From positions 1 through 43,083 of the forward strand of contig MHAR01000011.1 of assembly GCA_001803045.1 (NCBI GenBank): DNA of 43,083 nt. The letters are read 5' to 3'. The notes below the pieces were generated by a model. The model was not told the DNA's origin, made no database searches, and saw only the letters and a program-made list of their open reading frames with translations. Shown in pieces: positions 1 to 3,745 of the stretch. Positions within the stretch are counted from its first letter, which is position 1. Each line of letters opens with the position of its first letter. This DNA is from Ignavibacteria bacterium RIFOXYB12_FULL_35_14 (lineage in GTDB: Bacteria; Bacteroidota; Ignavibacteria; Ignavibacteriales; Ignavibacteriaceae). Both the position numbers and the translations under genes were made by a program.

Positions 1-12
1 ATATCTCACGGG
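1..12 (-). repeat. End of a second GIY-YIG element copy at the window edge
   Basis: The first 12 bases, ATATCTCACGGG, are identical and in the same orientation to positions 1006-1017, where the GIY-YIG element meets the recombinase N-terminal half. Here they follow directly on the recombinase codons for LLGHNSV, exactly where the family consensus (TTMIYTHV with the catalytic Tyr) should continue. I infer a second copy inserted in the same gene, running off the left edge with its nuclease on the minus strand. Only 12 bases are visible, so an assembly join at a repeat is also possible. Confidence 0.6.
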
Positions 13-747
13 ATGAACTGAATTATGCCCCAACAATTCTTGTATTGTCCTAATATCATAGCCAGACTCTAAAAGATGCGTAGCAAAAGAGTGTCTGAAT
101 GTATGAGAAGTAGCTGGCTTTAATATTTTTGCTTTTTTACAAGCTAATTTAATTGCTTTTTGTATTGTACTTTCATGGATATGATATCTATATATCAAAT
201 CACTATTATCATCCTTTATAAACTTATCTGCAGGAAATACAAATTGCCAATAGTAATCTTCATCTGCGTGCGGATACTTAATTGCTAATGCGTTAGGTAG
301 TTTTGTCCTTCCCTTTCCTTTCTTCAAATCAGCTTTATGCTGCAAATATATTTTATTCAAATGCTTCTTTAATTCCGGAATAATTGATTTCGATAATGTG
401 GTTATTCTATCCTTACCCCCTTTTGCTTCACGTACAATTATTTGATTCAAATCGAAGTTAATATCTTTTATGCGCAAATTTAACGCCTCTCCTAATCTTA
501 AGCCCGAACCATATAATAGCGAACAAATAAGTTTTACAACTCCTTCAAGATGCTTGAATACCTCTCTAACCTCACTTCTTGTGAAAACGACAGGAATTCT
601 TTTACTTCTTTTGGCTATTATTAAATCTTCTAACCAACCAAAATTTTTTCCTAACACATTTTTATATAAAAACAATATTGAACATAGCGCTTGATTTTGT
701 GTTAAGCCCGTGAGATAATCTCTATTTAATGTTAGTTGATTGATCAT
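1..747 (-). pseudogene. Integron-type tyrosine recombinase, C-terminal half (interrupted, runs off window)
   Basis: This is the catalytic half of an IntI-like tyrosine recombinase. The frame starts at ATG 747, inside the GIY-YIG element ([14 protein letters not shown] comes from the element tail), and becomes recombinase sequence at LTQNQAL. Visible catalytic landmarks are [10 protein letters not shown] (first Arg), [17 protein letters not shown] (HxxR) and LLGHNSV (second His). The stretch [20 protein letters not shown] resembles the extra segment typical of integron integrases. The catalytic Tyr is not in view, because at the window edge the frame runs into what looks like a second element end. 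The start overlaps the GIY-YIG stop by ATGA, so it could be made by translational coupling. Alternatively it is simply dead. Recombinase identity is firm; function is unknown. Confidence 0.85.
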
Positions 748-1021
748 ATTTGTAAATAATTCTTTATACGGTTTTTAATGTATCTTTTCCCCCAAGCAGT
801 TTTAAGATATTTTTCTCTTACCGTAGCATCCTGTTTGTTTAAGCAGCCTTCCCAATAGACTAATTTAAATGGATATCTATTTTTTGTGCTTATTACGATT
901 CCTTTATTATGTTCTGCTAACCGTCTGTTGATGTTATTAGTATAACCGGTATAAAACATTCCATCTTTTAGAGATTTCAAAACATAGACATAATAATAAC
1001 TTTTCATATCTCACGGGTTAA
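701..1021 (-). mobile_element. ~312-bp GIY-YIG element with terminal inverted repeats and target duplication
   Basis: The element proper is about 706-1017, flanked by GTTAA at 701-705 and 1017-1021 (TTAA 702-705/1018-1021; the exact boundary is ambiguous by one base). Its ends are 11-bp inverted repeats: CCCGTGAGATA at 707-717 and its complement TATCTCACGGG at 1007-1017. Removing one target copy plus the element rejoins the minus-strand recombinase in frame as VSALT-QNQAL, the expected family sequence. Nearly all of it is one nuclease gene plus a tail of about 40 bp. The nuclease's GTGAG ribosome-binding-like bases lie within the terminal repeat. No transposase other than the GIY-YIG protein is encoded. 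Confidence 0.85.
744..1007 (-). CDS. Small GIY-YIG nuclease carried by the element
   Basis: An 87-residue, single-domain GIY-YIG protein of the UPF0213/YhbQ-like size class. The first motif is YYYVYVLKS (residues 3-11), the second is [13 protein letters not shown] with the conserved Arg of the RR pair. Downstream are LVYWEG and the helix [12 protein letters not shown], as usual in this family. There is no extra DNA-binding domain. The family cuts DNA, and in group I introns and phages such proteins act in homing. Here the gene fills an insertion with inverted repeats, so a role in moving that insertion is inferred. Its start overlaps the recombinase N-half stop by ATGA (1004-1007), and its stop overlaps the C-half start by ATGA (744-747). 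Confidence 0.9.
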
Positions 1022-1237
1022 AGCTGATACATGTTTATCAACGGCAAGATGATTTAAGAATTGTTTTACCTCATCCGCACCCATATCCTTAGGATGGCGT
1101 TTGTTATGAAAAATAAAAAACCTTTTAATCCATGAAACGTAGCTTTCTTCTGTACTCTTCGCGTAGTGGGCTGCCCGCATCGTAATTCTCACCTGGTCGA
1201 GCAGTTTAGGTTTGTTATTTGATGCATAATCTTTCAA
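1004..1237 (-). pseudogene. Integron-type tyrosine recombinase, N-terminal half (interrupted)
   Basis: This encodes the N-terminal SAM-like DNA-binding domain of the recombinase: KLLDQVRITMRAAHYAKSTE, ESYVSWIKRFFIFHNKRHP, then ADEVKQFLNHLAVDKHVSA. The frame starts at TTG 1237, preceded by an AGGTG ribosome-binding site about 7 bases upstream. It ends at REI-stop, where the last codons are the terminal repeat of the inserted element. Its natural continuation is found at 704 and below. No attC-like cassette array was seen in the 140 bp upstream. It may still be translated, but alone it lacks all catalytic residues. Confidence 0.85.
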
Positions 1238-1378
1238 AAGAGCACCTAATAATTCCAGTTAAAACTAAGAAAGGAAAATTACATTATCAATCTTTATCAG
1301 AAATTAACTAAAAATGTCTTGTGTTAAACCTATGTTAATTCCAGAAGAAAGAATTAAAATAACGATCGCCTGATAAAT

Positions 1379-3745
1379 TCACCTTAACAACAACATCTTT
1401 TTCATTTCAACATATTCACCGGCTTGAAGCCGATAAATATAAATTCCACTTGCCAATCCGCCTTTGGCGGAAAACTCAACCTCATAACTCCCCGCAGGTT
1501 TGTATTCATCAACCAATGTCGCAACTTCATTTCCAAGTACATCATAAACTTTTAATGTTTGCCAACCTGCCTTGCCGTCAGGCAGGCTGCCTACTGGCGA
1601 CTGCCAACTGATTTTGGTGCTCGGATTAAACGGATTCGGATAGTTTTGCTCAAGCTTGAATTCGTTCGGGGCAATATATTTATCTTTAACACTTGTAACT
1701 AAGTTGCTGCTCCCGGGTGTTGGATTCATAAATTGCCAAGCAGCAGAACCATCAGGAAATCTTCCATAGGAAGTATCCGTTTTTTGCGGACCAAAGGAAA
1801 GCGAATCAAGTATCGAAACTCCGTCTGTATCAACCAAGGCAATGTATTCTCCGCTTTTGCTAAGCTTAAAGCTTGAATGAACACCCGGCTGGGTCAGATT
1901 ATCATCACACCAAACGATTAAAAACTCTCCAGGATTTAAATAAAGTGACGGCTGAGTAAATCTCCATTTAGTTAGGTTAGCTGGATTATCAGTCAAATAT
2001 CTTCCACTTAACAGAACTGGTGAATTAGTGTTATTATAAAGCTCAATCCAATCATCATGTTCTCCGCTCGGATCAGTAAATGAATTAGCATTGTCAGCAA
2101 GGAATTCATTAATTACAACATCACTAACAGATGGCAATAAAGCAGCAATGCTAATCGACGACTTCCTTGGATAAACTTGGAATTGATTCTGTGTGTCTTC
2201 AACGTAAATTGAAAATTTGCCTGAACCATTATTACCAAGTGGCGGAATAACACCGACATACCTGTCTGCCTCATCAACATTTTTTGTATTGGTAATTGGA
2301 GAAAACTGCATCGGATAGTTTTCTATTGCCGTTGAACCTGCTCTTGTAAATTGAATCGTCACTTCATTCAAACCAATATTGCTAAATGCAGAAACATAAA
2401 CTCGAATTGTGTCACTTGGTCCCGGGTGTTTTGGTTCATAGTTAATTTTATAAGCCATTGGTTTTGCACTTAAATAAGCAAGTTGTGTGAATGTTGAACT
2501 GTTCCTGAGATTTACAAACTGCTTCAACCCATTCTTTACATGCTGATTTGAGTATGCACTTAATGAATATGAATTAAAGAAATCGTTCAAGGTAAATCCC
2601 CAATCGAGAGTACGAAACGTATCCTCAATTGCCGGTGCAGTTATCATTTGTTTGATGCTATCTATGTGAGCTTCCCAAAGATTGAGTGAGTAAACATTGT
2701 CTCGAATAAACTGCATAAAATGTGTATAAAGATTACGATATTGAGAGTTTGCTATTAATTTTTCAGCAAGAGGTCTCGGACCATCAACAACCTTTGAAAA
2801 ATTATATGGATTGGCAGTTGCCCAATCAATATTAAACCAATCTATGCCGTATGTGTTGTCATAATCATATGGAATTATGTGAAAAATATCGTTTGAAGGT
2901 TCATAGTAGAGATAGTAATTATTCATCAACGACCAATAATCATCCCAGCTGCCCATCAGAACATTCATTGCGAAGTATTTTAACACACCCGGAATATCTA
3001 TAGCCGATTCAATCGAATCAGGTAAAGCAGCATCAGGCGTATTGTTTAGAATTGCAATTAATCTTACAAGCTTTGAAAAATCCATTTGCTGTTCATTTGT
3101 TTTTAACTCGTAGGCAGGTCTTCCACCGCTGTTAAGATTAATATAGACAGATGGATCACTACCTTGATAGGTTAAATCAGCCGGATAAAGACACTTCCAC
3201 AAATTACCGGAATCATCAGCAAAATTTTTCTTAAGAAATTCTTCATCAATGTGTTCAACATTTATGTACAAACCGTAATATTTCCCGTTGACATAAACTT
3301 CAACATGATTTGCCCTGCTTGCATTAAAGTCAATGGTTTCAAAATGATCAAAGCAAAGCTTGCTTCGTATGATTGATGGATCATTATGCTCACCGTTAAG
3401 ATTTAACTTCTCAACATCATAAAAATTTCTCCCTTTTTTGAAAGTGTTAAATGAAATTTTAAATGATTTCTTGGTCGATACTCGTGATGTATTTCCTCGT
3501 AATCTAAATCCAATTGAATCAACGGTTTCATCAATCCAATTATTTCTAAAACGAACTGATGCTACATGTTCGGAATCACTTTGAACATTATTGTAAATCC
3601 ATTGCAAGGATGCAGGATTAATTGTTATGTCTACTCTTGCAACATGGGAATCATCGTAAAGTTTCCAGCTATTGTCTGTTTGTGCTGATAGTTGAAGCGC
3701 AAAGGAGAGAAAAAAAGCTGGAAAAAGTATTAAGGAGTTTTTCAT
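1379..3745 (-). CDS. Exported CotH-like protein with lamin-tail and type IX sorting domains
   Basis: A 788-residue secreted protein. A signal peptide (MKNSLILFPAFFLSFALQLSAQ) is followed by a CotH-kinase-like region with RLRGNTSR, KSFKISFNTFKKG, KLNLNGEHNDPSIIRSK and, later, IIPYDYDNTYG. Residues about 545-690 are a lamin-tail-like domain (VVINEFLADN…DWIELYN…GEYIALVD). The last about 85 residues are a type IX sorting domain (FKLEQNYPNPFNPSTKI to the final LLLR). CotH proteins are known in spore coats as atypical kinases. Bacteroidota members of this surface-protein type are uncharacterised, so the substrate is unknown. The start is supported by AAGGGAAGT just before ATG. The sorting domain carries two palindromic inserts (1457-1471 and 1566-1586). 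Confidence 0.9.
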   Translation of the reverse strand: MKNSLILFPAFFLSFALQLSAQTDNSWKLYDDSHVARVDITINPASLQWIYNNVQSDSEHVASVRFRNNWIDETVDSIGFRLRGNTSRVSTKKSFKISFNTFKKGRNFYDVEKLNLNGEHNDPSIIRSKLCFDHFETIDFNASRANHVEVYVNGKYYGLYINVEHIDEEFLKKNFADDSGNLWKCLYPADLTYQGSDPSVYINLNSGGRPAYELKTNEQQMDFSKLVRLIAILNNTPDAALPDSIESAIDIPGVLKYFAMNVLMGSWDDYWSLMNNYYLYYEPSNDIFHIIPYDYDNTYGIDWFNIDWATANPYNFSKVVDGPRPLAEKLIANSQYRNLYTHFMQFIRDNVYSLNLWEAHIDSIKQMITAPAIEDTFRTLDWGFTLNDFFNSYSLSAYSNQHVKNGLKQFVNLRNSSTFTQLAYLSAKPMAYKINYEPKHPGPSDTIRVYVSAFSNIGLNEVTIQFTRAGSTAIENYPMQFSPITNTKNVDEADRYVGVIPPLGNNGSGKFSIYVEDTQNQFQVYPRKSSISIAALLPSVSDVVINEFLADNANSFTDPSGEHDDWIELYNNTNSPVLLSGRYLTDNPANLTKWRFTQPSLYLNPGEFLIVWCDDNLTQPGVHSSFKLSKSGEYIALVDTDGVSILDSLSFGPQKTDTSYGRFPDGSAAWQFMNPTPGSSNLVTSVKDKYIAPNEFKLEQNYPNPFNPSTKISWQSPVGSLPDGKAGWQTLKVYDVLGNEVATLVDEYKPAGSYEVEFSAKGGLASGIYIYRLQAGEYVEMKKMLLLR
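1457..1471. repeat. 15-bp palindrome inside the CotH sorting domain
   Basis: TCCGCCTTTGGCGGA is a perfect palindrome around a central base. It encodes the SAKGG of the FSAKGGLASGIY segment. A diverged form (TCCGCCTCTGGTGGA) sits at the matching place of the M14 peptidase gene (9817-9831). A related CCGCCTTTGGAGG lies in the intergenic region near 20712. Confidence 0.7.
1566..1586. repeat. 21-bp palindromic insertion unit, in frame in the CotH sorting domain
   Basis: CCTGCC-TTGCCGTCA-GGCAGG adds exactly seven codons (LPDGKAG) between SPVGS and WQTLKVYD. The GH13 gene has SPVGSWQTLKVYD with no insert and nearly identical flanking DNA (GTTTGCCAA|CTGCC…ACTGGCGAC), so it serves as the empty site. 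A 20-bp version is at 20649-20668. Confidence 0.8.

Follow-up and report, generated by a model that had tools for sequence, protein, structure and literature searches.

We describe a family of minimal, apparently promoterless mobile elements of the homing type, which have transposon-like ends and would be read from the transcripts of their host genes. We assign this reading a probability of roughly 0.7. In its best-defined copies the element comprises a left end, TTYACCCCGTKARATA, followed by a GIY-YIG nuclease gene and, as right end, the inverted repeat of the left. The member studied most closely, element A, was found in the window, by which we mean the whole 43,083-nucleotide stretch of DNA analysed (contig C11).

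Element A occupies 702..1022 on the minus strand (321 bp with its outer ends, TTTAACCCGTGAGATA ... TATCTCACGGGCTTAA). In the sense of the nuclease its left end lies at 1007..1022 and its right end, the inverted repeat of the left, at 702..717, both on the minus strand. As described in the first-pass annotation, the small GIY-YIG gene is enclosed by 11-bp inverted repeats, and the sequence scan of the window found them to be exact, at positions 707-717 and 1007-1017, with an outer span of 311 bp. The nuclease gene (744..1007, minus strand, 87 aa) matched PF01541 with an E value of 2.7e-16 and 60.1 bits against a cut-off of 22.6; its nearest solved relatives were UPF0213 1zg2 and 1ywl. It is the sole gene of the element, which is without a transposase of known type. 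The recombinase gene that had been seen as split on the minus strand was identified as an integron integrase, with TIGR02249 matches in both halves, interrupted at HVSA|LTQNQAL. The stop of its N-terminal half (1004..1237, minus strand; TIGR02249 7.4e-20) overlaps the nuclease start in the sequence ATGA at 1004-1007. A second ATGA, at 744-747, joins the nuclease stop to an ATG added by the tail of the element, and from there the frame crosses the right repeat and enters the C-terminal part of the integrase (1..747, minus strand; TIGR02249 9.2e-93), which is open at the contig end. Both overlaps were thus present as annotated, and so was the GTGAG supplied by the left terminal repeat. In the copies of this genome stop codons lie between the host and nuclease frames, and the in-frame fusion to both host parts typical of an intein was not found.

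Five close copies of the nuclease were found in this genome, with 66-100% identity, the next match being at 39%, and all five sit inside tyrosine-recombinase genes. Site A is occupied on contigs C11 and C68, site B on C42 (C42:1-330), site C on C52, and site D on C79, where it falls in the N-terminal region of a different tyrosine recombinase. A further copy of the repeat, missing from the first-pass annotation, was located at window positions 2..12 on the minus strand; it is the left repeat of a second element, at site B, which continues in contig C42. Since C42 continues the window end by a 57-nt overlap, this second element lies in the same integrase as element A, with the insertion point GHNSV|KTTMIYTHV. 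Overlaps of 45 and 57 nt place contig C52 next to the ends of C68 and C51; like C11-C42, these are joins inferred from shared sequence. There were 21 integrase-family matches in the genome, only those on C11 and C51 being above the cut-off, and both of these genes carry an insertion.

Other copies and empty sites had been called for, and both were found, in this genome as well as in relatives. In this genome site A is uninterrupted on contig C51; among relatives it is uninterrupted in G060, G059 and G021 and in others. As such uninterrupted recombinase homologues exist, we concluded that the segment is an insertion and not an ancestral feature of the gene. The empty site reads GCTTCGACACAG in G060 and G059, GTATCGACACAA in G021 and TCCTCAACGCAG in C51, so that the tetramer at the four printed sites is TCGA or TCAA, not TTAA. 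The letters GTTAA (701-705) and TTAA (1018-1021), which had been taken for a target duplication, do flank the repeats. Among the 71 family members with well-defined ends, TTYA opens the left end in 60 and TRAA closes the right end in 62; the commonest left/right combinations were TTCA/TAAA (33) and TTTA/TGAA (14), in which the two tetramers differ. From the family-wide tetramers and the empty sites without TTAA it follows that the flanking TTAA copies are the outer part of the element ends, and a TTAA target-site duplication was rejected. Elements of the IS200/IS605 group likewise are not known to produce a target-site duplication. Of the VSALT-QNQAL that the first-pass annotation restored in frame by removing the element and one duplication, the L of VSALT is S in the four printed homologues. 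The host residue at the junction appeared to be given by the left tetramer in some hosts and by the right tetramer in others; this was read by eye against known motifs and is suggestive only.

To define the family, one genome per species was scanned; 122 relatives were confirmed and 80 kept. With our own and other loci added, 98 loci were examined, from which three double entries were removed to leave 95. Both ends, TTYACCCCGTKARATA/TATYTCACGGGGTRAA, each matching at 13 or more of 16 positions, were found in 71 of the 95 loci. These best-defined copies measure 271-380 bp (median 287), the nuclease stop lies one base short of the element end in 53 of the 71, and the right end mostly also codes for the last residues of the nuclease and its stop. 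Variant ends such as GTTAGATA, GTCAAATA, GTAGGATT (one mismatch) and GTTAGAAAT, among others, still had complementary arms. By taxonomy lookup the relatives belong to Verrucomicrobiota, Bacteroidota, Planctomycetota, Ignavibacteriota, Rhodothermota, Acidobacteriota, Myxococcota, Pseudomonadota, Cloacimonadota, Omnitrophota and several Patescibacteria lineages, the genomes being mostly MAGs. Within the same taxonomic family 54 of 80 genomes had a nuclease match at E<=1e-15, many of these being more distant GIY-YIG genes, and 15 of 395 genomes of a phylum sample had one at E<=1e-28. A protein-free search for exact repeat pairs at element spacing was positive in one of 390 phylum genomes, this one, with two elements, and its reversed-pattern controls gave 0. 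Named phage and plasmid records contained no match at 1e-12; one IMG/VR contig did match (locus L083).

Host genes could be labelled for 63 loci. Thirty of these were tyrosine recombinases, mostly integron-integrase-like, in which a dozen or more insertion positions were distinguished by eye; the others included 8 RAYT-like transposases, 6 23S_rRNA_IVP-type genes, 4 DUF1016 nucleases, 2 Bro-N genes, 2 IS91 transposases and 2 epimerase 5' stubs. The RAYT label is based on a single Pfam match (L120), on likeness within the group and on known motifs; the L096 fragment gave no Pfam match at 1e-4. Nine of the 63 loci lie directly 5' of a start codon, for example those of MTHFR and gyrA. Under our main reading, labelled insertions would mostly split genes of mobile or multicopy families, and a few may avoid harm through a site just 5' of a start codon or a re-supplied gene end. 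Because integron integrases are hit repeatedly and both above-cut-off matches of this genome lie in interrupted genes, the elements may affect whether integrons stay active.

Host and nuclease were co-oriented in 46 of 51 assigned loci, or 44 of 47 when near copies were left out. This supports the earlier proposal that the nuclease is placed for reading from the host transcript. The nuclease would accordingly be made off the transcript of the host gene, as suggested by its running the same way as the host and by there being no space for a promoter. The five antisense exceptions were L083, L140, L168, L103 and L115. Three of them (L083, L140 and L168) form a subfamily with the ends GTAGGATT that lies antisense to its hosts, an IS91 transposase twice and an integrase once.

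To see how often the junctions of element A recur, 38 sense hosts were used, with frames assigned by homology, an overlap defined as 4 or 1 bases and the two wrong frames as control. At the 5' junction stop and start overlapped in 11 of 37 hosts (one locus gave no value) versus 6 of 74 wrong frames (p=0.0047); after four related rows were dropped the counts were 8/33 versus 6/66 (p=0.064). An exact overlap at the 3' junction was found in 4 of 38 (L093, C11A, C68A and L129) versus 0 of 76 (p=0.011), and in 3/34 versus 0/68 after thinning (p=0.035). An ATG within 30 nt of the 3' junction was not clearly enriched (14/38 versus 15/76, p=0.067). As 34 of the 38 hosts had no exact 3' overlap, coupling is a tendency and not a rule. 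The expectation that ATGA junctions recur above frame chance thus held for both overlaps, which were enriched, but they are not universal and the 5' effect weakened to p=0.064 after thinning; similarly, the term translationally coupled cassette suits site A well but describes only a tendency across the family. After terminating within or shortly past the left repeat, ribosomes may often restart on the nuclease, as the overlaps in the sequences would allow. At site A the start codon in the tail of the element may allow separate synthesis of the C-half.

The same junctions could instead mean that the insertion is tuned to keep the host gene alive as two pieces, with stop and restart at both sides. 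The two ATGA overlaps at site A and the excess of exact 3' overlaps speak for this. The tail between nuclease stop and right repeat (718..747, minus strand) moreover weakly resembles the integrase helix INNLATNR, which is missing from the C-half: 29 of 2000 shuffles scored as well as the 10-mer peptide, and 105 of 2000 as well as a 15-mer that adds part of the repeat. At the amino-acid level this is suggestive of captured integrase sequence, although the likeness in DNA was not significant (1496 of 2000 shuffles). There is also a precedent, as the Aeh1 nrdA gene split by mobE is reported to work still (PMC2988022). Even so, we consider preservation of the host in two pieces unlikely. Besides the tail not being significant in DNA, the 3' overlap is absent from most family members, insertions pile up in the same gene (A plus B on C11/C42), and in site-B copies such as L093 and L094 the downstream host piece is only 20-23 codons long, which makes two working halves implausible there. 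Comparison of paralogues gave omega values of 0.06-0.10 for the integrase halves, that is, purifying selection; in at least one paralogue the element is a later arrival, so this is silent on the split state.

Mobility was assessed by comparing the divergence of element and flanks. The site A elements of C11 and C68 are identical at 316 of 321 bases, with a dS of 0.02 in the element versus 0.51 and 0.75 in the flanks. L099 and L100 showed zero differences in 83 codons (dS 0) against 0.38-0.47 in the flanks, for L163/L167 dS was 0.11 in the element versus 0.82 downstream, and for L127/L144 it was 0.49 versus 1.04. At several shared sites the element is therefore far less diverged than its flanks, the footprint that homing leaves. 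In several other same-site or same-family pairs (L124 with L114 or L128, L123/L153, and C42B/L093 downstream) divergence of the nuclease equalled or exceeded that of the host, so that these pairs say nothing for recent homing. One clear case of a move to another gene was found, L101/L109, with 89% identity of the nuclease DNA and unrelated flanks. Omega of the nuclease was 0.06-0.39 where computable, 0 in L083/L140, and 0.70 between C11 and C68, the last from four changes only. According to our main reading, the nuclease would cut uninterrupted homologous genes and repair would copy the element in, a step that we base on the sequence footprint at several sites.

The nuclease tree (101 rows) was poorly resolved, with 54 of 95 inner branches open. 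On this tree the inner hexamer of the repeat changed 23 times, versus a mean of 30.6 and a minimum of 28 in 500 shuffles (76 rows). End-repeat types therefore track nuclease clades, which suggests that the nuclease, or a co-evolving factor, recognises the end repeats. Such recognition may permit occasional jumps into unrelated genes, L101/L109 being the one clear case. A stronger version is that the GIY-YIG nuclease is a self-sufficient, transposase-like enzyme that recognises the matched ends of its own 280-bp element and both homes into homologous genes and jumps to new ones, with TTYA at the junction; we offer this tentatively, as possible rather than probable. Like a transposon, the family has terminal inverted repeats (71 of 95 loci) and copies in unrelated flanks (L101/L109 and several host families); a transposase of known type and a target-site duplication were not found in it. 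IS200/IS605 and RAYT/REP elements are small, with palindromic ends and a fixed tetranucleotide at the junction, and in these features they resemble the present family, which differs in having no HUH transposase but only a GIY-YIG nuclease. If the nuclease is indeed transposase-like, the family would stand between homing genes and transposons as a distinct class of autonomous element, spread from Bacteroidota to Patescibacteria. If our main reading is right, its members are among the smallest apparently self-moving elements, made up of a single enzyme of about 85 residues and an end of 16 bp on either side.

That the ends follow the nuclease also bears on whether the GIY-YIG gene is a mere passenger, with a different enzyme, such as the host recombinase, acting on the ends. 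Single-stranded or hairpin DNA is a substrate of integron integrases as well as of RAYT and IS91 transposases, the ends are palindromic, and tyrosine-recombinase, RAYT-like or IS91 genes account for 40 of the 63 labelled hosts. Other hosts were hit too, however (DUF1016, Bro-N, 23S_rRNA_IVP, and the MTHFR and gyrA leaders), repeat types follow the nuclease, and hairpin-only copies of the ends, with terminal inverted repeats alone, were not found in any of 390 genomes with the pattern used. We therefore regard a passenger role of the nuclease as improbable. One structure like a moved hairpin-only derivative was seen at L107, where a 38-bp palindromic copy of the ends is nested in the left end of the element, near 1950-2000.

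An intron-like element, whose end repeats would base-pair within the transcript so that the insert is excised as RNA and the host protein restored, appears very unlikely to us. In the predicted RNA fold the end repeats do form the closing stem of the element, the orientation is sense in 46 of 51 loci, many flanking frames remain open, and 19 of 38 hosts regain their frame when all but four bases of the element are taken out. The frame classes for excision of a fixed length were, however, 19:11:8 of 38 (18:9:7 of 34 after thinning), so that no single excision length restores every host frame. The Rfam search of window positions 1-1400 gave no family at E up to 1 and no group I or group II ribozyme core was found there, the energy of the predicted fold was not unusual (z -1.07), and the re-supplied gene ends at L177 and L182 would be needless. 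RNA splicing as a general rule was rejected on these grounds. Translational bypassing with matched take-off and landing codons fitted site A (TTA/TTA) but, judged by eye, not sites B, C and D, and was also rejected. An assembly artefact is hardly conceivable, even though contigs C11, C42, C51, C52 and C68 each end in or at such elements, because the same structure occurs on contigs longer than 100 kb, Niabella drilacis DSM 25811 and Chryseobacterium sp. R2A-55 have it as well, and the reversed-pattern controls were empty.

Among known systems, the free-standing homing genes of T4-like phages comprise the GIY-YIG seg genes and the HNH genes mobE and mobA (PMC2988022). In these phages, as in our family, a selfish nuclease gene can land in a gene and split it, and mobE starts in the upstream stop codon (UAAUGA), comparable to the stop/start overlaps described here; the portions of that source at hand mention no shared inverted ends (PMC2988022). 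In the present family, by contrast, a single end type, which tracks the nuclease, recurs in elements inserted in many unrelated genes. In the fungi Allomyces (atp6 gene) and Glomus, mitochondrial mobile ORFs consist of an endonuclease gene inserted with a re-supplied gene end (PMC3630166). They resemble L177 and L182 in their duplicated gene ends, but are mitochondrial and larger, with no inverted ends mentioned in the sections available (PMC3630166), and in our family re-supplied ends occur at few loci. GIY-YIG insertions that are not group I or II introns have been counted in CPR rRNA genes (PMC11270868), which likewise places a nuclease gene in a non-intron insert. Those inserts are sited in rRNA, and inverted repeats are nowhere mentioned in the accessible text (PMC11270868); our family might explain them. 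Searches of open-licence PMC papers, also by the literal repeat letters, brought up no description of an element like the present one. We file the family with the homing genes, while its ends give some chance, well below even, of a separate class. Homing enzymes are described as not recognising their own mobile DNA (PMC1564403); if our reading is right, the family blurs the line between homing endonuclease genes and transposons, which do recognise theirs.

Re-supplied gene ends were seen at a few of about 105 loci examined. At L177 the element is followed by a near-copy of the first bases of the gene, with which a complete epimerase start opens. At L182 a complete integrase lies upstream, followed by the element and then by a repeat of the last 14 residues of the integrase. 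At L174, L177 and L180 alike, the element lies in a 5' stub duplicated from a sugar-nucleotide epimerase gene, and an epimerase start is found just downstream; L174 and L180 resemble L177 but are diverged, L174 only narrowly exceeding the control's 99% mark and L180 having been recognised by eye.

In L148 (Parcubacteria) and L156 (Doudnabacteria), both from CPR genomes, the element adjoins AGGAAAGTCCGA, a sequence resembling RNase P RNA. A gathering-level Rfam search of these two loci gave no RNase P match; each genome had a single RF00010 match, scoring 91.9 and 81.4 bits where the cut-off is 100, and by coordinates these matches begin within the right end of the element. We take the RNase P-like insertion point to be the P3 region. 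Tandem arrays of more distant GIY-YIG genes with regular spacing were observed at G048 C1:120135-122168 and 1911893-1912823 and at G043 C1:1384628-1385516.
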